DNA of 64,000 bases. Origin: Siphonodentalium dalli (lineage: Eukaryota > Mollusca > Scaphopoda > Gadilida > Siphonodentaliidae). Shown here piece after piece: positions 7,231-27,106 of this stretch. The stretch spans positions 107,407,319 through 107,471,318 of the forward strand of contig CP136066.1 in the NCBI GenBank assembly GCA_032622095.1, in the 5' to 3' direction. The position numbers and the translations under genes are program-made. Positions within the stretch are counted from its first letter, which is position 1, and each line of letters starts with the position of its first letter. The notes under the pieces are model-generated. The model worked only from the letters and a program-made list of their open reading frames with translations. It was not told the origin of the DNA and made no database searches.

Positions 7231-10060
7231 CCAAGATGGCTGCTGGCGGCCTTGTTTTCGGCCGAATGACCCCAAAATGAGTCGTTCCCATCTACATGTC
7301 ATCGTTAACATCCATGACAAATTTTATGACGATCAGACTAAAGGTACGACCTGTAGCCCATGCTAAAGAATTTAGTCATACAAAGAGTAAAATCCAAGAT
7401 GGCTGCTGGCGGCCATGTTTTTTGGCCGAATGATCCCAAAATGACTCGTTCCCATCTACATGTCATTATTAACATTCATGACAAATTTTATGATGATCAG
7501 ACTAAAGGTATGATATGTAGCCCGTGCTAAAGAATTTAGTCATACAAAGAGTAAAATCCAAGATGGCTGCTGGCGGCCATGTTTTCGGCCGATTGACCCC
7601 AAAATGAGTCGTTCCCATCTACATGTCATCGTTAACATCCATGACAAATTTTATGATGATCAGACTAAAGGTACGACCTGTAGCCCATGCTAAAGAATTT
7701 AGTCATACAAAGAGTAAAATCCAAGATGGCTGCTGGCGGCCATGTTTTTGGGCCGAATGACCCCAAAATTACTCGTTCCCATCTACATGTCAATATTATC
7801 ATCCATGACAAATTTCATGATGATCAGAAGAACAGTACGACCTGTGGCCCATGCTAATGGATTAAATTTTGTAATCCAATATGGCCGCTGGCGGCCATGT
7901 TTTTTGTCCGAATGACCCCAAAATGACTCGTTCCCATCTACATTCCAATTTCAACAACCATGACAAATTTTATGATGATCAGACTAAAGGTATGACCTGT
8001 AGCCCGTGCTAAAGGATTTAGTCATACAAAGAGTAAAATCCAAGATGGCTGCTGGCGGCCATGTTTTTTGGCCGAATGACCCCAAAATGACTAGTTCTCA
8101 TCTACATGTCATTGTTAACATCCATGACACATTTTATGATGATCAGACTAAAGGTACGACCTGCAGCCCGTGCTAAAGAATTTAGTCATACAAAGAGTAA
8201 AATCCAAGATGGCTGCTGGTGGCCATGTTTTTTGGCCGATGACCCCAAAATTACTCGTTCCCATCTACATGTCAATATTATCATCCATGACAAATTTCAT
8301 TATCATCAGACAAACAGTACGACCTGTGGCCCGTGCTAATGGATTAAATTTTTAAATCCAAGATGTCCGAATGACCCCAAAATAACTCGTTCCCATCTAC
8401 ATTCCAATTTCAACAACCATGACAAATTTTATGATGATCAGACTAAAGGTACGACCTGTGGCCCATGCTAAAGGATTTAGTCATACAAAGAGTAAAATCC
8501 AAGATGGCTGCTGGCGGCCATGTTTTTCGGCCGAATGACCTCAAAATGACTCGTTCCCATCTACATGTCATTATTAAAATTCATGACACATTTCATGATG
8601 ATCAGACTAAAGGTACAACCTGTAGCCCGTGCTAAAGGATTTAGTCATACAAAGAGTAAAATCCAAGATGGCTGCTGGCGTCCAGGTTTTTTGGCCGAAT
8701 GACCCCAAAATTACTCGTTCCCATCTACATGTCATTGTTAACATCCATGACACATTTTATGATGATCAGACTAAATGTACGACCTGCAGCCCGTGCTAAA
8801 GAATTTAGTCATACAAAGAGTAAAATCCAAGATGGCTGCTGGCGGGCATGTTTTTTGGCCGAATGACCCCAAAATTACTCGTTCCCATCTACATGTCAAT
8901 ATTATCATCCATGACAAATTTCATGATGATCAGAAGAACAGTACGACCTGTGGCCCGTGCTAATGGATTAAATTTTTAAACCCAAACATGTTTTTTGTCC
9001 GAATGACCCCAAAATGACTCGTTCCCATCTACATTCCAATTTCAACAATCAAAACAAATTTTATGATGATCAGACTAAAAGTAGGACCTGTAGCCCGTGC
9101 TAAAGGATTTAGTCATACAAAGAGTAAAATCCAAGATGGCTGCTGGCGACCATGTTTTTTAGCCGAATGACCCCAAAATTACTCGTTCCCATCTACATGT
9201 CATTGTTAATATCCATGACAAATTTTATGATGATCAGACTAAAGGTACGACCTGCAGCCCGTGCTAAAGAATTTAGTCATACAAAGAGTAAAATCGAAGA
9301 TGGCTGCTGGCGGCCATGTTTATTGGCCGAATGACCCCAAAATTACTCGTTCCCATCTACATGTCAATATTATCATCCATGACAAATTTCATGGTGATCA
9401 GACGAACAGTACGACCTGTGGCCCGTGCTACTGGATTCAATTTTGAAATCCAAGATGGCTGCTGGCGGCCATGTTTTTTGTCTGAATGACCCCAAAATGA
9501 CTCGTTCCCATCTACATTCCAATTTCAACAGCCATGACAAATTTTATGATGATCAGACTAAAGGTACGACCTGTAGCCCGTGCTAAAGGATTTAGTCATA
9601 CAAAGAGTAAAATACAAAATGGCTGCTGGCGGCCATGTTTTTTGGCCGAATGACCCCAAAATGACTCGTTCCCATCTACATGTCATTATTAACATTCTTG
9701 ACAAAAGTTATGATGATCAGACTAAAAGTACGACCTGTAGCCCGTGCTAAAGAATTTAGTCATACAAAGAGTAAAATCCAAGATGGCTGCTGGCGGCCAT
9801 ATTTTTGGGCCGAATGACCCCAAAATTACTCGTTCCCATCTACATGTCAATATTAACATCCATGACAAATTTCATGAAGATCAGACAAACAGTACGGCCT
9901 GTAGCCCGTGCTAATGGATTGAATTTTGAAATCCAATATGGCCACTGGCGGCCATGTTTTTTTTCCGAATGACCCCAAAATTAATTATTCTGGTCTAAAT
10001 GTTGATGTCAACAGCTATGACAAATTTCATAATGATCCGACGAAAGGTACGACCTGTAGC
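7231..10060. repeat. Satellite array, ~164-bp units with trimer higher-order structure
   Basis: About 18 head-to-tail units in intron C7-C8. Starts of the AAGATGGCTGCTGGCGGCC box or its equivalent are near 7,231, 7,394, 7,558, 7,721, 7,876, 8,040, 8,204, 8,358, 8,499, 8,663, 8,827, 8,982, 9,131, 9,295, 9,450, 9,614, 9,778 and 9,933. Three unit types are visible: X (AACAGTACGACCTGTGGCCC and TAATGGATT end), Y (CATTCCAATTTCAACAACC) and Z (AAAGAATTTAGTCATACAAA). X-Y-Z recurs about every 483 bp. Two units are shortened (8,358 lacks the GGCTGCTGG block). The right edge runs into a CGTACACA tract. Confidence 0.92.
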
Positions 10061-10282
10061 CTGCATTGTTGATGCCTTACGTACACACGTACACACGTAC
10101 ACACGCACACAAAGCCATGGCAATAGCTCAAACTTTACAAAGTAAAGTTGAGCTAAAAACCGACTTCAAGATTACAAATGGCTTTTTGTGAATACAACAC
10201 AGACAAATAAATTCGATTGAGTATCTTATTAGTCTATAAAGGCATAAAAAGTTGTTTAGAAGAGCGTTGATGGCCAAATCTC

Positions 10283-10544: not shown

Positions 10545-11030
10545 AGATAGTGTATCTCTTCCAGGCAACAATTAAAAGAACAATATAATTTATATAAAAC
10601 CGACTTCAAGATTACAAATGGCTTTTTGTGAATAGAACACAGACAAGTAAATGAGATTGAGTTTATAAATTCATAATAAAGTCGTTTAGAAGAATGTTGA
10701 TGGCAAAATCTCTTTAAGAATCAAAATAGCTTTGGCCTTGATTGAGCGTGCTAACAAGATAGAGTCTCCCTCTTGCTACATACACTCTGAACATTTTTGC
10801 GAAATCACCTGAAGCTTCTGTTCTAAAATAGCACGTAAAACTGTCGTGAAATGTTGTTTGTTTTGCACAAAAAAAAGTCAAAATATAATAAAAATTAATT
10901 GATAGATGCGTTTCTTGACAGGTGTCTTTGATTCATATTTATTATTTTGTTCACTGGAAACTACATAAAACTTCTCAGGAAGAGATACATTATTTTTAAA
11001 AGGTCATGCAGGTAGTACAAGGCTTCTTAC

Positions 11031-11174
11031 TCTTCTCTATCAGATGCATCATCATCAGCACTGGATAGCTTTGATTCCAGAGCGCTCAGCTTCTCCTCGA
11101 ATTCCTTCAGAACTTTCTCTTTGTTTTCTAAATTGGATTGTAGCTTCTCTATTTGGTCTTCATAATGAGCTCTC
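11031..11174 (-). CDS. FER: FER coding exon C7 (FX coiled coil)
   Basis: 144 nt, about residues 314-362. The acceptor is TTTTTCCAG and the donor AAGA|GTAAGA. It encodes a strong coiled coil, HYEDQIEKLQSNLENKEKVL followed by KEFEEKLSALESKL, then an acidic tail (SSADDDASDREE). It aligns with the vertebrate FER segment with AEELMQTQQMLLNKEEAVLELEKRI. The FX domain is known to bind phosphatidic acid in FER. The exon sits immediately left of the splice-donor minisatellite; the nearest array unit lies about 64 bp upstream of its acceptor. Confidence 0.88.
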
Positions 11175-11227
11175 CTGGAAAAATCATATGAAATAAGCAT
11201 GTCAGACACTTGGTACATAGAGTTCTC

Positions 11228-11757
11228 GTAATACTCACTTGGCACAATGGGTTGCTAATATACTAACTTGGCACATGCAGGTTTGCACCATACTAACTTG
11301 GTACATAGGCTTAACATCTTACTAACTTGGCACAAATGGGTCTTTATCACACTAACTTGGGACATTTGAGGTTTTGTCATACTAAATTGGTATATACTAA
11401 CTTGGTACATAGGGTTAACATCATACTAACTTGGTACATATGTGGTTTCATTAGACCAAATTGGCACATATGTGTTTTTATCATACTAACTTGGCACATA
11501 TAGGTTTTCATCATACTAACTTGGCACATATGGGTTTTTATCATAATAACTAGGCACATACAGGTTTTTATCATGCTAACTTCTCACATATAGGTTTTCA
11601 TCATACTAAATTAGCACATAGGTTTTCATCCCACTAACGTGGCACATATGGGTTTTTATCATACTAACTTGGCACATTTGGGGTTTCATTAGACCAAATT
11701 GGCACATATGTGTTTTATCATACTAACTTGGCACAAATGGGTTTTTATCCACCCATT
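11228..11757. repeat. Splice-donor minisatellite, block 1 (~18 units of ~30 bp)
   Basis: On the plus strand the unit reads roughly CATACTAACTTGGCACATA plus GGGTTTTTAT. On the gene strand it reads GTGCCAAGTTAGTATGATG, which matches the exon C6/intron junction at 19,826-19,850 at about 22 of 24 positions. Around 18 units are visible; some have GACCAAATTGG or GTAC variants. The unit nearest exon C7 (11,231-11,245) reads GTGCCAAGTGAGTAT on the gene strand, a better match to the U1 consensus than the real donor. The block lies between exons C6 and C7. Confidence 0.9.
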
Positions 11758-11894
11758 ACTAACTCTATTGACTATATACAGCCTGTTACGTTAATTACAT
11801 CAACATAGGTTTATTAGGTCAATGTAGCTTTATTAGGATAGTACTACTTTCATGATGTAAGTATATATGCAATTTGCTCAGGTAACTAGGGATG

Positions 11895-12965
11895 CTAACC
11901 CTTTGAACCCTGGCTCCCCACAACGATCGACGCCCTGACCCTGGGCTCCCAGTGGTATTTTCACTTATTGTAGACTGTGCTCAGGCGTATGGTGCTGTAT
12001 TGTATGCATTCTCTTCTACCATATTATTTACACCATTGGAAAGATTATTAAATTCTGAATTCAGCACATCACAATCTATTTCAATATCTTAAATCCAGAA
12101 AAAGTTATACAAAATTGAAAACTTATTAGATTTATTATACCGTACTGACCCGGCTCAAGGCCCATGCCCGTGTTTAAGCCCACCCATATCTTTTGGCCAA
12201 ATTCCATGCACAGGGGTATATTCGAGTTTAGGCCCACCCCAAATTTTGTTCAATTTCAGCAGTGGTAAGTAAGTATTTGCTATCAGCTTGTAGACAGCAA
12301 AACAGATTGACAAACTCGAGAAATATAATATTTATATTAAAAACGGAAAATTATACCTCGTAGGCAAGTGAGAATATTTAATAAAACAAAGGCCCCCTGG
12401 GCCTAAAGCCGGGTCAGTACGGTAGAAACTGCCAAAAAATGTTAACGTCACAATCCCAATGTAAATTTACATGACGTCATATGGGCTTTAGCCAAGAAAA
12501 ACTCTGGGTGTTCTCTGAATACCCCACAAATAACTAAAATGCGCGACATTGTGCGGTCTATTGGCTTATGCCATCTTAAAGACAAGATTCTGAACTTTAT
12601 TCTCGTGTAAATCTGTATAGCGTATACCTTTGCGCAAAAAAATTATGATTTAATGAACTCAGAAGTTGGTTTATTCTTGAACAAAACTCGTATGACATGT
12701 GTTTACATCCGACAATTGTTATAACTTCGTTATGCCAAACACAACCTCGATTTTTGGGCAGCTAAAACAGTTATAATATGAATTTTATGCAACACTATTT
12801 TATTTTTCTCAACGTTGAGTATTTATCAAAATATAAAAAATAAAATGCAACACTGCGACGCCGACGGTAGAACGAGATTACGTCATGGCCGGAAAACCGG
12901 CCAGTCACGTATATATGCAATTACGTTCTGGCCGGAATACCGGCCAGCCGGGTTCAAAGGGTTAA
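11895..12965. mobile_element. TTAA element (piggyBac-type), 1.07 kb, non-autonomous
   Basis: Left end CTAACCCTTTGAACCC, right end GGGTTCAAAGGGTTAA. The terminal inverted repeat begins CCCTTTGAACCC next to TTAA (left copy mutated to CTAA). The interior has CCGGCCAG/CTGGCCGG repeats near 12,890-12,950 and a nested TA element at 12,138-12,424. No transposase frame seen. It sits inside the splice-donor minisatellite and separates blocks 1 and 2. Confidence 0.8.
12138..12424. mobile_element. TA-target MITE (Tc1/mariner-type), nested
   Basis: Perfect 18-bp inverted termini TACCGTACTGACCCGGCT and AGCCGGGTCAGTACGGTA, including the TA target at each end. About 287 bp, no coding capacity. Nested inside the TTAA element at 11,895-12,965, hence younger. 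Confidence 0.85.
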
Positions 12966-12974
12966 CTAAGCTAA

Positions 12975-13127
12975 ATTACATAAGGTTTTCATCATACTAA
13001 CTTAGCACATATTTTTTATCACACTAACTTGGCACATATTTTTTATCATACTAACTTGGCACATATGGTTTCTCAGTATACTAACTTGGCACATAGTATT
13101 ATCAACACTAATCTGGCACATTGTGTT
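12975..13127. repeat. Splice-donor minisatellite, block 2 (5 units)
   Basis: Five further units of the same minisatellite (CATCATACTAACTTAGCACA onward), directly right of the TTAA element. The blocks were evidently continuous before the insertion. Confidence 0.88.
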
Positions 13128-13235
13128 TTAGTACTAGAGTATATTGTACACTAGCAGGGGTACCCGGCGTTTCCCAGGTTAAACCCTCTGCATGTTGTGG
13201 ATATTTGGTGGGAATAGAGATTACTCTTGTTCAAA

Positions 13236-13585
13236 GTGATATATTATTTTTAAAATTATAATACATTTTTCCTTAAAGAAAGCCTGAACACTGAACTATA
13301 TGGATATATGTCCTGCGTTTGTAAACCATAGTAGAAAAGGGGTTAACTTTTTGGTCGCCTACGATCACTCACGGTCTTCAGTGGCTTGCCTCGGAATCAG
13401 TCACGCATGCACAGTCCCAATATAACCGATTGAATCTCGTCAGTTTATTTTCAACTCAATCAGGAGATTGGCGAGTTGCGGGGTTGGGAATGGCACCGCC
13501 ATGGGAGGGCCCTATGATAGTTCAGTGTTCAGGCTTTCTTTAAGGAAAAATGTATTATAATTTTAAAAATAATATTTTTCCGCCA
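13236..13585. mobile_element. Small hairpin element, derivative of the adjacent 4-kb element
   Basis: Arms ATTATTTTTAAAATTATAAT through CCTTAAAGAAAGCCTGAAC (about 13,238-13,295) are mirrored at 13,527-13,585. The interior 13,271-13,451 is a ~180-bp inverted copy of 17,368-17,549 (CACTGAACTATATGG, then GCGTTTGTAAACCATAGTAG, then CCGATTGAATCTCGTC). It appears to be a short member of the family of the neighbouring 4-kb element, abutting it. Confidence 0.7.
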
Positions 13586-16500
13586 AAGGAAGCCCTCACA
13601 CTGAACTATATGGATTAGAATGCAAGCCCAGGAGGAGGTACGAGCAATAAAGTTAATAGCCAAATTTTGAGTAAAGGTACTCTTCTAAAACAGATTGTAC
13701 CATATATGAACACTTTAATGAATCTGTTAGGATTATTTACATGAAATAACTCATATAGTTAGAGTGCTATATTGCTCAAATGTGTACCGCCCCCTTGTTT
13801 TGAAACAAACATCCCATGAGGTGCCATCCAATGCATAGTTGCGAGCGAACCGAGCAAGTATAACGGAAGAAGAAACTCTTCGTTCTTCTCTGTGTCGTCT
13901 TCCTCAGCTGTCTGTTCTAAGGTCCCACCCGTCAAGGTCCCATGATGCAGGATCATGAAGGAAGGAGACTAACTCACTCTCCGCCTTAGCGACAGAACGA
14001 CCTGCACAGACGGAGGCCCACTCCGACGATGGCGAGAACCAAAGTTAACTAACTGCTATTTGCCAAAGAAAAAGCCAGAGAACCTGATGCCAAATTTGTG
14101 GCACAGAGATTGAGTTGAGAACCCATTAGGCCAAACAGGTTGTACAATGATAATGGAGTCAAGCCATCTGAACAGAGGGAGCCCCCACCACCGCATCTTG
14201 CAAGGTGGTCATGCCCCCTGTAGTTCTTCTTAGAACAGTTTCCTTGTTTTTCTTCTACTGATCACATGTCTCTGAGGTACCTATGCATCACAAGATATCC
14301 GACAGAAACCCTGTGATACAAATCTTACGCGTATATAAATATATAAAATGATATAAAATATATATATCAAGGTGATATATAAGTCAGCAATGAGATCATT
14401 TCAGAAGGCCCTTTGGCTCTTTGACAACTGAAATCAGTTCAAATGATGTACAATGTAATCAGATGATAAACACGGGTAAATTGTCACCATACGGAATATT
14501 CAGTTCTGAGCCTCTGCCCAGAACATCATGTCACTTGCCCCCCCCCCCCCCCAAACATGCAGCAGAACGACCTAGGTGTGTGATAGGTATGTTAGTTTGA
14601 GGCATGCAGCAAACTAGGGGAAGACCCGCTCCAAAATGGCTCGCTGATGAAGGAAACAAATTAAATTATCATCCTCCTAGTAAAGGACACACATCCCTTT
14701 ATAATGTTGTTACTTATTGAATTTTAAGAGCCATGATAGAGAGGAACTCCCCCGACCTAAGTGGTCCTGTTGAAGGCATGTTTAAGGAAAATAGGACAAA
14801 TCCAGCATAGACCGAAGCGATCAGAGTTGTCAGCATGGCTGCAGGCCCTTATGATTGGGTGGCTGGTGCCATGTGGTTGGGATCCCCTCATATGGGTTGG
14901 TCCCTGCCTGCAAGGAAAGGTCTGATGGCTAGTCAATGAGCTTCCTCGAAAGCTGAGCTGGACAGCGCAAACGTCTTTGCCTGTTTTATTGTTGAATGTT
15001 GATAGGACAAATCCGGCATATACCGAAGCGCGCAGAGTTGGCAGCATGGTTTCAGGCCCTTATGATCGGGTGTCTGGTGCCATGGGGTTGGGATCCACTC
15101 TGACTGGGTGGTCCCCTGCCTGCAAGGAAAGGTCTATAACGCTAGTCAATGAGCTTCCTCGAAAGCTGAGCTGGACAGTGCAAACGTCTTTGCCCGTGTT
15201 ATTGTCTATTATCTATAGGACAAATCCAGCATAGACCGAAGCGTGCAGTGCCCTGTTAATTGTATTACCATGTGCCAGATAATCAAATTGATATTGGTAA
15301 TAGGAGTATGAAGAGCCATGAGATGTACTCTGTCGGCCAGGCCATTGGCAGGGTCGTTGTGGCACGTGACAAGAGAAATGCTTTCCATGTAAATGTGCTT
15401 CATTCATGTGTGAAGTCTATTGACCAGTGCGTCAGTCGCGGGTCGTGTACCTTACCTATGAAATGTATATCACAGGTAAGATAGATCGAGTTCTCGATGC
15501 ATTTTGAAGACGGTGGTACGAGTGCGCAGGGCGTGCCAGGAGGGCTTGAGAGTTCATAGTTCAGTAGGAAGAAGCCTATAGATGAGATAATCCGTGGATA
15601 GGAAATCACGATCCGCAGCTTCTGCCTTACCGATGCCAGACTGTGACGACCGAAAATACCCACAGTCTGACGTATTGTGCGCAGACGGGTCGTCATCGAA
15701 AGCCTCAGACGCCTTGGGGTGTAAGGATAGCATGTCGCTCCCTGCCCTAGCGTCGGAACGACCTGCAATGTCCATAATGGACGACAAAACACTAGAGGGA
15801 GGCCCATTCCGGCGATGGCTCAATCGAGGTGTAAATACCTCCCATGGAATTTTAAGCTACGCCAACTGCTTGAGCAAAAGGCTGATAAACTGAGTTCCAA
15901 TTTTGGAGTCCAGTGTCGAAATGAAGAATCCCATAGCCAAAACTGGTTTCTTCTGATAACCGGAAGGAGGTGGAGCCATCGGACCGGGGTGAGCCCCCCC
16001 CAAATTGCAGGTGGTCCCGACCAAGCTGAATGTCCTGTCCAAGCAGAACGATGGGTAGCGGCCATTGCAGCAGAAACCCCAAGACGGCTGAGAGGCAGGC
16101 AAGGCCGTGTCTTTATATAGAGCGTGACCAGGGGGACCGGGCTTGCTACCGAATGGGTAGGGCCACTGCCCTATGCCGAAGTCGCCGTAGGCCGCCCAGC
16201 CGGTGTCGTTACGTTCGCACGCGATTTGGCAACTTCAGCACACAGAACCGCTCGCGCCGGTGTGGGACCAAATGTCCTGGGGGTCCCAAGTACCCCGGCA
16301 TCGCCACCGGTCGCCTCCCCACTAATTGATTGAATGCCGAGGCATAATCGGGGGGAGTGTGAACTGTTCCTGCCCGAGAAGAGAGAAATACTAGCCGGGA
16401 AGGATCCAGAGATGGTGCAAATAAAGGCTCTATATCATACTAGTAGACTATCTCATCTGATTTTCATGTTTTAGTTGTTGAATTATAGAAAAATTCGTTG

Positions 16501-17556
16501 AAATAATGGAAAACCTACTTGAATAATTACTATCCCCAGGGGCGCTTTGAGCGCCCAAACCTGTAACAGGTAGAAAAACATCCCTGGATCCTTCTCAGAA
16601 ATTTACAAGCCCACCGGTTCAGACCGGCTTGCTGAACCGGCTGGTGTATAATCGCAGCTATTGTTCATTATATACAAGGTAGCTATTAATCGACATACAT
16701 CTAGGACATGGCTGAGATTTATTCGTAGCACTACGGTACTACTGTCATATGAAGTTATTGTTATGCATGTGACATTGATAAACCAAGATCTAATCAACTG
16801 TGTAGATTGTAATCAACTTCAAGGTCAAACGTGATTAACACATCTGGATCATTTGTATTGAAACATAAAACAACATAGTATTATGTGAAAGCACGTTGTT
16901 CATAACATGACGAGAGATAGCGTCAGTAGCGATGGAATTATTGCTAAATAAATTTCCACGCATTAAAACGTCAAAATAATTCCCACGAAATTAGGATACT
17001 TCCGGCGGCGAATCACATGGCATTTTTGATATCTGACAAATTCTATCATACCTTATAGGTGCTATAATAATTCCATAGATGTATTTCTCACAATAATCTG
17101 TGCGCCTCGTAAGGCCTTGAAATGGCGGCTAATTATGGCGAAATGTTGATTTTCATATTCGATAAATTTTTTAAGTTCGCCGCCTGTTTGAAAACACGAA
17201 CAATTATATGTTTGAAGCGAAACGGTCCGTGAATTCGAAACGATAATTATAAAAACGAACGCGTAGGCGACCAGTAATTATTGTATCGATAAATTGAATT
17301 TGTCGTTATTGTTAAACGACAAATTCGGAAAAATACTCCCTTAGACTTCCGTTCGGTTTGGTAGCAGAAAATAAACTGACGAGATTCAATCGGTTATATT
17401 GGGACTGCGCATGCGTGACTGATTCCGAGGCAAGCCACTGAAGACCGTGAGTGATCGTAGGCGACCAAAAAGTTAACCCCTTTTCTACTATGGTTTACAA
17501 ACGCAGGACATATATCCATATAGTTCAGTGTGAGTGCTTCCTTTGGCGGAAAAACA
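13574..17556. mobile_element. 4-kb terminal-inverted-repeat element with GC-rich interior
   Basis: Left end TTTTTCCGCCAAAGGAAGC then CACACTGAACTATATGGA; the right end mirrors it as TCCATATAGTTCAGTGTGAG then CCTTTGGCGGAAAAA. Between about 13,760 and 16,650 the base composition shifts to clearly more GC than its surroundings, with internal duplications: modules with GAACGACCTGCA and GGAGGCCCACTCC occur near 14,000 and 15,760, with a weaker version near 14,570, and a ~212-bp tandem lies at 14,793-15,245. Open frames of 60-135 codons exist on both strands (for example 15,594-15,893 plus and 15,400-15,807 minus), but none shows a domain I recognise. Superfamily not assigned; target duplication not resolved. 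Confidence 0.65.
14793..15245. repeat. Tandem duplication, ~212-bp unit (two units plus a partial third)
   Basis: AGGACAAATCCAGCATAGAC starts at 14,793, 15,004 (variant CGGCATATAC) and 15,217. The units share GGTTGGGATCC, CCTGCCTGCAAGGAAAGGTC and GAGCTTCCTCGAAAGCTGAG. One frame runs through the second unit (plus strand, 14,977-15,234). Part of the GC-rich interior of the 4-kb element. Function unknown. Confidence 0.85.
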
Positions 17557-17989
17557 CATATTCTCATAAATTGTATATTCAAATAGCATCACAAAACATG
17601 ATTCTTACACATGGAATGTAAGTAGTGGCTCACCTTGTCAATTGTCATTTGTTTATCGTGATTAATTCCACCAATAAAGAAGAATTTATTTATTTTCTGC
17701 ATATATGCCAGACGTTAACATTATAAACACATTAGTTCGCAAAATTTAAAGACGACAATTGGGCTTTATACATATATAGAGATGTATCAATCAGTCTAGT
17801 TGGTTAGACTAATATGGAACAGACTCAATTGTGTTATAATAATAATATATACATGATCAATTTTAATATGCAATCCCATGACGGTTCGAGGTCTCTCAGT
17901 TTGCAAGAATATGTGTATCAGTTAAATAAAATGAGAAATATACGTTTAATGCTTTCTTCTATGTATCTGTTTTGCTAGCTCATTAACGT

Positions 17990-19345
17990 TTTTAACACGC
18001 ATGATTTGATTCCACGTATCATTTGAGAAAAATTTGTATGAATTTGATGGTTATTGGCACTAAACATATTTTTTATCAGTTTTGGTTACCCTCCCGTCCC
18101 TATTTCAGACTGAGGCAGCGCCTCTTTTGTCATCATTAAACCACACACTTAGACTCATTATGGAAATATACTAAAAATATATATAACATTGGTAAAAATT
18201 GACAAGAATACAAATTCGTATCAAATTTAGGGCCCCCATATCTCTCATCCAAACGGCACCAATATCTAAACCACACGATTAGATTTCTCGTATCACGGAG
18301 AAGAATATGTATCAATCTAGTGGAAATCGGCGTTAAACATATTGTTCATCTTTTTTGTGTGTGTGTGTTCCTCTCACCCTCTATGCATCCTGACTCGAAT
18401 GGGCCCCACTTGTGACAGCTTGTGACATCCTTAAACCACACAATTAGACTCCAGATATCATGGAGATGATTATTGTTAAGTTTGGTACTAATCGGCGACT
18501 AAATCAATTTTGATCAAATTTAGTGCCCACCCACCCCTATCTCTCACCAAAAACAGCACCAACATGACATCTTTAAATCACACGATCAGACTCCTCGTAT
18601 TATGGATAAGAATGCGTATCATGTTGGTGGAAATTGGCGCTAAAATTATTGCGTATCAATTTTTGTGCCCCTCTGCCTTTCAGTTCACCCCTGACTTGAA
18701 TGACGCCACTTTTGACAGATTTAAGCCACTCCATTAGACTCCTAATACCATGGGGATGATATTGTATATGTGTGGTGGCAATCGGTGACTAAACCCATTC
18801 TTATCAAATTGAGTGCCCCTCCCACAATCTTTCATCCAAACGATAGCAATTTGGAGTCTTTAAATCGCACAATTAGAGTCCTTGTTGTAGTGGTATGTAT
18901 TATGTCGTGCTCGCAATGTGTACCTATGTTTATATACCTCATGTGCTATATAAGACGTGTCGCACTAAACATCGTCTCGTCTACCTTTATCCACATTTAT
19001 TATCACATAGTTTTATCAATTTGTGTGCCCCTCTCCCCTTCCGTGCATCCCTGACGCGAATGGCGCCACTTTTGACATATTTAAACAAAACCATTACATT
19101 CATCATATCATGGGAATGATTATATATTATATAAGTTTTGTGGCAATCGACAACAAACATTGTTTCTGCACCCCCCCCCCCCTTTCTGCCCCTGACAACA
19201 ACGGCGTCACTTTAGAAAATCCTAACCCGCGCCATTATCTTTCTCGTAAAAAGTTACCCCTAGTAGACCCCTTTGGTGCCATCTAGATGGTCCCATGTGA
19301 ATTTCTATACAACACAGACAGACAGACAGACAGACATTCGCAAAT
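17990..19345. repeat. Diverged tandem repeat body, units of roughly 200 bp
   Basis: Recurrent blocks: TTTAAACCACACAATTAGAC-type, then a TATCATGG-type block, then a GGTGGAAATCGGCG-type block, then ATCAAATTTAGTGCCC and a CACTTTTGACA block. Unit boundaries are too diverged to fix by eye. It ends in a GACA tract (19,314-19,336). No coding potential. Confidence 0.65.
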
Positions 19346-19369
19346 ATAGATATAGATTACTGTTTTATA

Positions 19370-19632
19370 TTAGCCATTTCATGACAGAATCTGCACTGGT
19401 GCAGCATTAAAGAATATGTGCCAGTGTATTCTCTTATATATGTGAGTCTCCCATAGGGAACCTTGCATATATTAGAGAATGTACTGGCTTACAAGGTCAA
19501 GGTAAATATTGTCAGGCCAATGTATTATCTTATATATGCGAGGCTCCCTACTGGAGACTTGCATAAATAAGAGAATGCATTGGCACAGGGTTTTCACAAC
19601 ATTTCAGGCAGTTCCAGTTTTAAAATGGTTAG
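19370..19632. mobile_element. PB1 MITE copy b
   Basis: Degenerate termini (TTAGCCATTTCATGACAG and AAAATGGTTAG) but the typical interior GTGCAGCATTAAAG, CATTCTCTTATATATGC-type inverted copies, and TGGCACAGGGTTTTC. The oldest-looking PB1 copy. It lies in intron C6-C7. Confidence 0.7.
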
Positions 19633-19825
19633 AACTGTAACTTGAAATTGAGTCTTGGGAAGAATCCAAAGATATTTTGGGAAATATTGAAGAATTCCTC
19701 GTATTGTTTAGAAGGCAATAATAAACATATTGAATGTTTTACAGTAGAAATTTTTTCGGACAATTGGGCTTCCATAGTTTAGGCATCCTATATCAGGTAT
19801 AAAAACAGCAATGTTGAGTTGGGTT

Positions 19826-19850
19826 TCATTATACTAACTTGGCACGTAGG
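19826..19850 (-). promoter_or_regulatory. C6 splice donor, apparent founder of the minisatellite
   Basis: On the gene strand: CTACGTGCCAA|GTTAGTAT then AATGAAACCC. The minisatellite units reproduce both the last ~12 exon bases and the first ~13 intron bases of this junction. Only one unit sits here, and it is the functional donor judged by phase. Confidence 0.85.
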
Positions 19851-19961
19851 GTATCTATTGTCATGTCATCCACAGCGATGTCACCATTTCTGAGCGGCCC
19901 TTTGTAGTCATCAAGGAGTTTTGTATCTACTTCAAAGTGGGAAGGAGCTAAGGGATCAGAT
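19839..19961 (-). CDS. FER: FER coding exon C6 (F-BAR/FX boundary)
   Basis: 123 nt, about residues 273-314. The acceptor is CTTTTCAG. It encodes PSHFEVDTKLLDDYKG, matching the IEFDTSLL element after the F-BAR, and ends MTIDTLRAK, entering the FX coiled coil. The donor is GTGCCAA|GTTAGTAT: A rather than G at the last exon base, and an internal GTTAGT. This junction and about 12 exon bases before it recur as the unit of a minisatellite further along the same intron (see findings). Use of a later donor would read AAG TTA GTA TAA, a stop within four codons. Confidence 0.88.
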
Positions 19962-20768: not shown

Positions 20769-20912
20769 ACAAACTGATATAGGCTGTTTGGTAGGCTTTA
20801 TAGGCTCAACATTCGTACAAACTAATATAGGCTGTTTGGTAGGCTTTATAGGCTCAACATTCGTACAAACTAATATAGGCTGTTTGGTAGGCTTTATAGG
20901 CTGAACATTCGT
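20769..20912. repeat. 48-bp tandem repeat, three near-identical units
   Basis: Units start at 20,769, 20,817 and 20,865 with ACAAACTAATATAGGCTG, TTTGGTAGGCTTTATAGGC and TCAACATTCGT. Only one or two differences between units indicate a recent duplication. It lies in intron C5-C6. Confidence 0.9.
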
Positions 20913-21242
20913 ACAAATGAATCAAAAATGTTTTCTCTGCCTGTCACCACCAAACACAATCTGAACATCCCTGCAAAAGACAAATAGACCATTCCACTGT
21001 ATATATTTATAACTGAATGAGAGAACCAATTCAGTAAATTACTTTGGTGGCATCAGCTACGCAATCTAAATAAACGTTTATCAAATGGCCCCATTCAAAT
21101 AGATGCTAGAGTAAGAAATGTTTTATCTCAACTTTCTAACAAAACAAATCTAGAATACTTTGGCAAGCTGTAAATCAAAAGTAATCTAATCTAAAATACT
21201 CTCCAATTTTTGTTGTATTTATGGTTAATAAGAGGAACTGAC

Positions 21243-26892: not shown

Positions 26893-27106
26893 CTTGAATG
26901 TATAACAACAGTTATTGAATTCGGAGCCGTCTAATTTCTGAGCTTGTTGTATGACCGACGCTAGAGACGAGGCATACTTCTTATCACAGTCTATACGAAG
27001 TAGAATACACTTCTTAAATGTCTCTAGTAATTTTATCTCAGTGTCTTGTAGCTTAACTAAGGCTTCATGTGAAATCTTCCCCTGAAGGTCTGCTCCAAAT
27101 CCCATC
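26893..27106 (-). CDS. FER: FER coding exon C1 (start codon, F-BAR helix start)
   Basis: The exon opens after an acceptor reading TGTTTCAG with one untranslated base, then ATG at 27,105-27,103. Residues 1-71 begin MGFGADLQGKISHEALVKLQ, the family signature at the extreme N-terminus, and continue with a TEIKLLE segment, an RIDCDKKYASSL segment and an alpha-helical stretch typical of the FCH/F-BAR fold. The donor is AAG|GTATGA, phase 0. The start is secure because family members begin with MGFG directly after a splice acceptor, and the upstream sequence is non-coding. A hAT-type MITE starts 28 bp beyond the acceptor, at 27,135. Confidence 0.93.

Follow-up and report, generated by a model that had tools for sequence, protein, structure and literature searches.

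Here, we describe a minisatellite inside an intron of a FER/FES-type tyrosine kinase gene of the scaphopod Siphonodentalium dalli, whose repeat unit resembles the 5' splice junction of the exon that precedes it. The DNA analysed is a window of 64,000 nucleotides from contig CP136066.1, and the whole-genome searches covered 2.23 Gb in 9 contigs of one assembly. In a tblastn search with human FER, 10 of 10 matches fall on the minus strand and follow the order of the query (residues 1 to 810), with the F-BAR start at 27105 and the exons for SH2 and kinase between window coordinates -6630 and -16268. The expected order of F-BAR, SH2 and tyrosine kinase exons on one strand is therefore what was found, with an FCH match that stays under the Pfam cut-off (25.9 vs 27.8 bits). 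The two exons that border the intron, C6 and C7, sit between the F-BAR and SH2 parts of the gene. In a comparison limited to human FER, their joint peptide aligns to residues 278-349 at E 2e-4; against Pfam and solved structures it has weak coiled-coil-type matches only. The TAA at the C7 donor does not terminate the gene, because C7 is an internal exon with the donor AGA/GTAAGA (a slash marks a border here and below); the exon after it (6366-6189) has good borders and keeps the frame. The intron between C6 and C7 is 8,664 bp long. In gene order, the exons, the junction copy and the array are:

19839 to 19961, minus strand: exon C6 of the FER/FES-like gene, 3' end ..GAT ACC CTA CGT GCC AA
19821 to 19852, minus strand: C6 junction copy, ACCC-TACGTGCCAA/GTTAGTATAATGAA-ACCC, from the alignment and the genome-wide core search
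12979 to 13119, minus strand: array block N, 5 units (N1 weak), from the unit scan
11190 to 11734, minus strand: array block A, 19 units (A19 weak), from the unit scan, extending into the stretch just ahead of the C7 acceptor
11031 to 11174, minus strand: exon C7, internal, donor at 11030, from the exon borders and the next exon in frame

The two blocks contain 5 and 19 units of a ~30-bp repeat, 24 in total (wide scan, up to 8 mismatches), close to the 5 and ~18 counted in the initial annotation of this DNA. Unit starts are mostly 27-30 bp apart, with one spacing of 15 bp, and the outermost units, N1 and A19, are weak, each with mismatches at 7 of 19 core positions. When the C6 border is aligned with the array consensus, 31 of 35 columns match, with 2 mismatches and 2 one-base gaps; the score is 46, and the best of 300 shuffles reaches 29. 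Both the exon and the intron bases of the functional boundary are present in the unit, 14 of the former and 18 of the latter (19852-19821), and the exon-derived stretch CGTGCCAA at the C6 exon end is part of this homology. The likeness had been put at ~12 exon and 13 intron bases in the initial annotation; it is longer than that. ACCC flanks the C6 segment on both sides, 28 bp from ACCC to ACCC, near the array spacing, and the homology of the C6 copy extends slightly past one unit.

This likeness is specific to the intron. When up to 3 mismatches are allowed, a 19-base core of the unit is matched 18 times in the window, each time on the minus strand between 11227 and 19845; dinucleotide shuffles give an expectation of 0.01. 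Genome-wide, the 19-mer GTGCCAAGTTAGTATRATG, which has one two-way position, gives 50 matches at up to 2 mismatches. Two are exact, one at C6 and one in the array; 8 of the 9 with one mismatch and 4 of the 39 with two mismatches also fall in the C6-C7 intron. A 211-base array query has 5 genome matches, 5 of 5 in the same intron, in a search that passes over simple or very frequent words. As the source of the unit, a satellite or transposon spread through the genome was considered and rejected, since the core and array searches found no close copies elsewhere (again with very common words skipped).

Could an unrelated minisatellite simply look like a donor by chance? Donor-like bases are common in any genome, and outside the intron GTGCCAAGTTAGTATRATG has 36 matches at up to 2 mismatches, against 14 for the reversed control pattern (among the 36, one sequence recurs 7 times unchanged and is probably a dispersed repeat). 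However, the match includes 14 exon bases, both exact 19-mers of the genome lie in one intron, and the alignment score far exceeds its shuffle maximum. The window matches, the genome core search and the shuffle scores rule out such a coincidence for practical purposes, and we give it next to no credence.

In light of this homology, where did the array come from? We consider it probable, at a rough 0.76, that the C6 5' splice junction of the gene itself gave rise to the minisatellite, by either of two routes, copying in place or copying over a distance. An origin from the gene's own donor junction had been proposed beforehand, and it is supported by close copies limited to the intron, by colinear coding sequence and by ACCC on both sides. 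We favour the direction from exon to array because the coding sequence is colinear, because no other close source of the unit was found in the genome, and because the CpG at C6 (TACG) is TATG in 24 of 24 units, a C to T change of the sort that CpG decay would leave in the copies. In the FER alignment there is no gap at the C6/C7 junction (MTIDTLRAK... vs LTAESLQVM...), which indicates that the copied exon bases are old coding DNA. The ACCC on both sides, 28 bp apart, is the trace expected of duplication at microhomology.

The proposed course of events is as follows. A ~28-bp segment bounded by ACCC, with 14 exon bases and the start of the intron, would have undergone duplication inside the C6-C7 intron; the most likely cause is slippage, or error-prone repair, with ACCC as the microhomology. 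Amplification would then have given 24 units or more at a spacing of mostly 27-30 bp, and interspersed elements would later have broken up the array. Throughout, the parent donor would have stayed attached to its exon and the extra donors would have lain in sequence that is removed, so that splicing was probably undisturbed. We infer the direction of copying, the microhomology step and the neutrality of the outcome.

Some findings weigh against seeding by the C6 junction. The C6 copy has no adjoining second unit, with 182 bp of single-copy, unit-free DNA in between. The core GTGCCAAGTTAGT is more conserved among the units (~0.91) than the flanks (0.73-0.74), which we take as an effect of indels and drift, an explanation that is incomplete. 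In addition, LRAK is not kept in human FER, which has LQVM, the leucine and the spacing alone being conserved. The last of these points, along with a C6 copy that is single and isolated and whose homology runs slightly beyond one unit, would suit the reverse order of events, in which a pre-existing intron minisatellite was converted or slid into the end of C6 and the present donor is a recruited unit. We regard this as improbable, given a protein with no insertion or deletion at the junction, a CpG difference directed from exon to array, and a genome search (common words skipped) that found no close array elsewhere as a source of the unit.

Seeding by the C6 junction, by whichever route, has to account for the rest of the intron. 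Most of the repeat searches scored 40 candidates, and the copy counts and some of the borders are rough. From C6 towards C7, the intron outside the array contains:

19632 to 19813, minus strand: single-copy block of 182 bp right after the C6 copy, its sole genome match being itself
19370 to 19631, minus strand: interspersed repeat with inverted halves (5028 candidates, 40 scored; far end from 2637, 40 scored)
13151 to 19356, minus strand: stretch with Helitron-type ends (A/TC...CTAG/T), from a search of its two ends; the interior looks nested
11895 to 12965, minus strand: TTAA-flanked element between blocks N and A (3' end searched, repeat border 11896; TTAA read at the other end)
11750 to 11894, minus strand: second interspersed repeat beside the TTAA element, between blocks N and A (11750 is the query end)

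The repeat with inverted halves ends near 19370-19361, close to the next element, the Helitron-type stretch, whose 5' border lies at ~19357 and whose 3' part is repeated to ~13150-13138 in most scored matches. The repeat at 11750 to 11894 has 39 other matches at 79-93% (1280 candidates, 40 scored). Going by terminal motifs, we take the elements at 19370 to 19631, 13151 to 19356 and 11895 to 12965 to be, respectively, like miniature inverted-repeat transposable elements, of Helitron type and piggyBac-like. Outside the recognised repeats ~955-981 bp of intron is left, and the array, at 686 bp, makes up 70-72% of that remainder.

One option is that the array was once continuous from C6 to C7 and that the 182-bp block is an old insertion, without recognisable relatives today, or a run of units that have decayed completely. 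Such a course is one form of seeding by the C6 junction and not an alternative to it. It agrees with a first unit at the junction, with the interspersed repeats found in the sampled parts of the stretches between blocks, and with the array's share of the remaining intron. However, the 182-bp block is single-copy and has no homology to the unit (score 18 vs a shuffle mean of 18.9, with 210 of 300 shuffles as high), and the homology after C6 ends right past the ACCC boundary and not at a random point of the unit. Plain slippage in place also needs a later insertion, because unique DNA would otherwise lie after the array and not before it. We hold copying in place only tentatively, at somewhat short of an even chance. 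The initial annotation had pictured the ancestral intron as largely tandem donor copies split by transposons. Most of that picture holds, in view of the array's 70-72% of the non-repeat intron and the interspersed repeats that part its blocks; what fits less well is continuity from C6, where single-copy, unit-free DNA follows the junction copy.

The other option is that the ~28-bp donor segment was copied ~190-230 bp downstream (recognised repeats excluded) by templated repair and amplified there. Such a copy would directly explain the order of C6 copy, unique DNA and array. It would also leave a reservoir of ready-made donors beside the next exon, from which new introns or exons might arise. 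We think this route possible but rather unlikely. If it is true, boundary minisatellites occur in animals beyond lancelets, and they are of a kind able to leave the boundary.

Two further searches bear on the extent of the copying. Decayed units were looked for in six exon/intron stretches outside the array, and none rose above shuffles. A larger duplication carrying the junction together with its flanks was also considered and rejected: in 21 comparisons among seven blocks, three of which are wholly or partly interspersed repeat, the strongest pair (43-bp vs 31-bp) was equalled by 8 of 200 shuffles, which is unremarkable for 21 tests.

Minisatellites made of boundary copies are already known, mainly from lancelets. 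The lancelet "mirages" (Adh3, globin, troponin C, PGBD5) are described as minisatellite-like tandem copies of exon/intron boundaries, with units of 10-72 bp in Adh3, of which many but not all keep AG/GT signals; they are reported not to disturb splicing and are proposed as a source of introns (PMC3087553, PMC3902484). The FER array resembles the mirages so described in a unit that carries both exon and intron bases of the functional boundary, in a unit length that is mostly 27-30 bp (one of 15 bp) and thus within the Adh3 range, and in a splice signal present in many, not all, units. In contrast to them, the array today neither spans nor adjoins the boundary: a lone parent copy stands at the 5' end, followed by the 182 bp of single-copy DNA and by transposons, with the bulk of the array at the far end of the intron (3'), beside C7. 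Hence we file it as a variant of the lancelet mirage, the same in the make-up of its unit and different in not adjoining the boundary. A further comparison is with intron gain by tandem genomic duplication, of which the potato RdRp is an example (PMC4974935). As in that process, splice signals have been duplicated inside a gene; unlike in that process, an existing intron has been filled and no new intron is seen in FER. The FER intron offers a clear case in which DNA from coding sequence plus splice site became a minisatellite and the gene shows no evident damage. Should such boundary arrays exist outside lancelets, new splice sites and introns may draw on them as a general source of raw material, though a minor one.

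What might the array do to splicing? The donors were scored on a Shapiro-Senapathy-type matrix, and the two sites that matter most here are:

19833 to 19841, minus strand: presumed functional 5' splice site CAA/GTTAGT, score 67.8
11233 to 11241, minus strand: top-scoring donor-like site of the 24 units, CAA/GTGAGT, 64 bp before C7, score 79.2

The second of these had been singled out in the initial annotation as looking stronger than the real donor; the unit is as described there, and on this matrix it may indeed be stronger. The same source held that a donor is kept in every unit, which overstates the case: GT is kept in 19 of 24 units and GTTAGT in 15 of 24, and 5 of 24 have lost GT. It had also foreseen an immediate stop upon use of a downstream donor, which the reading LRAKLV followed by two stops confirms, and an F-BAR-only protein, which does not agree with the SH2 and kinase exons that follow or with the ~6.9-8.8 kb exon that a direct splice from C6 to the array would need.

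Human IFI6 (6-16/G1P3) reportedly has a minisatellite with multiple splice donors (Turri et al. 1995). Two downstream repeat units of IFI6 are stated to act as donors (PMC4526556). By analogy, the 19 GT-keeping units in FER could act as alternative donors, as decoys or as sites for U1 binding, and in this way tune the inclusion of C7 or give rise to truncated mRNA; the number of units that keep GT or GTTAGT, and the one that scores above the real donor, would fit such a role. As in IFI6, the units resemble donor sites at an exon end. Unlike the IFI6 units, which are stated to be in use, those of FER are unlikely to serve as donors. A splice from C6 to an array donor would take in an exon of the above length, with transposons and an immediate stop, and with SH2 and kinase exons downstream the outcome expected is decay. 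The donor bases are also no better conserved than their exon-derived neighbours (mean ungapped identity 0.910 for GTTAGT vs 0.917 for GTGCCAA), which gives no sign of selection on the donors. We therefore consider a functional array very unlikely. Direct use of array donors from C6 is predicted to be unlikely; were it to occur, mRNA decay would be likelier than an F-BAR-only protein, because the immediate stop lies upstream of many further junctions. The effect of the array on the gene is probably little. At its C7 end, the last degenerate unit (11190-11216) contains CTGAC ~30 bases before the C7 acceptor AG, and the array may reach into the C7 acceptor signals. This CTGAC is a plausible branch-point motif.

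Copies of the C6 type were not found at other junctions of the gene. At 8 other junction windows inside the window, each matched itself only. In a set of 20 windows centred on FER match ends, searched over the window and a further 16.8 kb, none had a local array and 4 matched elsewhere: two acceptor windows had a single short match apiece on the opposite strand, and two donor windows had 2 and 14 dispersed matches. At one FER kinase exon (L001:1442-1522; G000:C6 about 107391981, minus strand), the donor AAG/GTACAGTAATGCCC... is formed by a transposon-like repeat end. The terminal sequence, which starts TACAGTAATGCCC, begins at intron position +2 of that donor and is matched at 14 other places in the window and its flank.

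Tandem repeats also occur in the neighbouring introns. The intron after C7 contains a long tandem array of ~164-bp units (window 8239-10061), and the intron before C6 contains a 48-bp tandem repeat (window 20769-20917) of 3.1 copies at 98%, which is probably young.

Elsewhere in the genome, 92 of 114 matches to a FER SH2-kinase query (counted by eye) fall in one tandem cluster at G000:C2:149826915-150592764, made of kinase-like reading frames that are mostly ~281 codons long without stops. In addition, G000:C7:59624824-59625927 holds a single open frame of 515 codons with a 39% match to residues 2-354 of the 358-residue FER SH2-kinase query, which suggests an intronless SH2-kinase gene.

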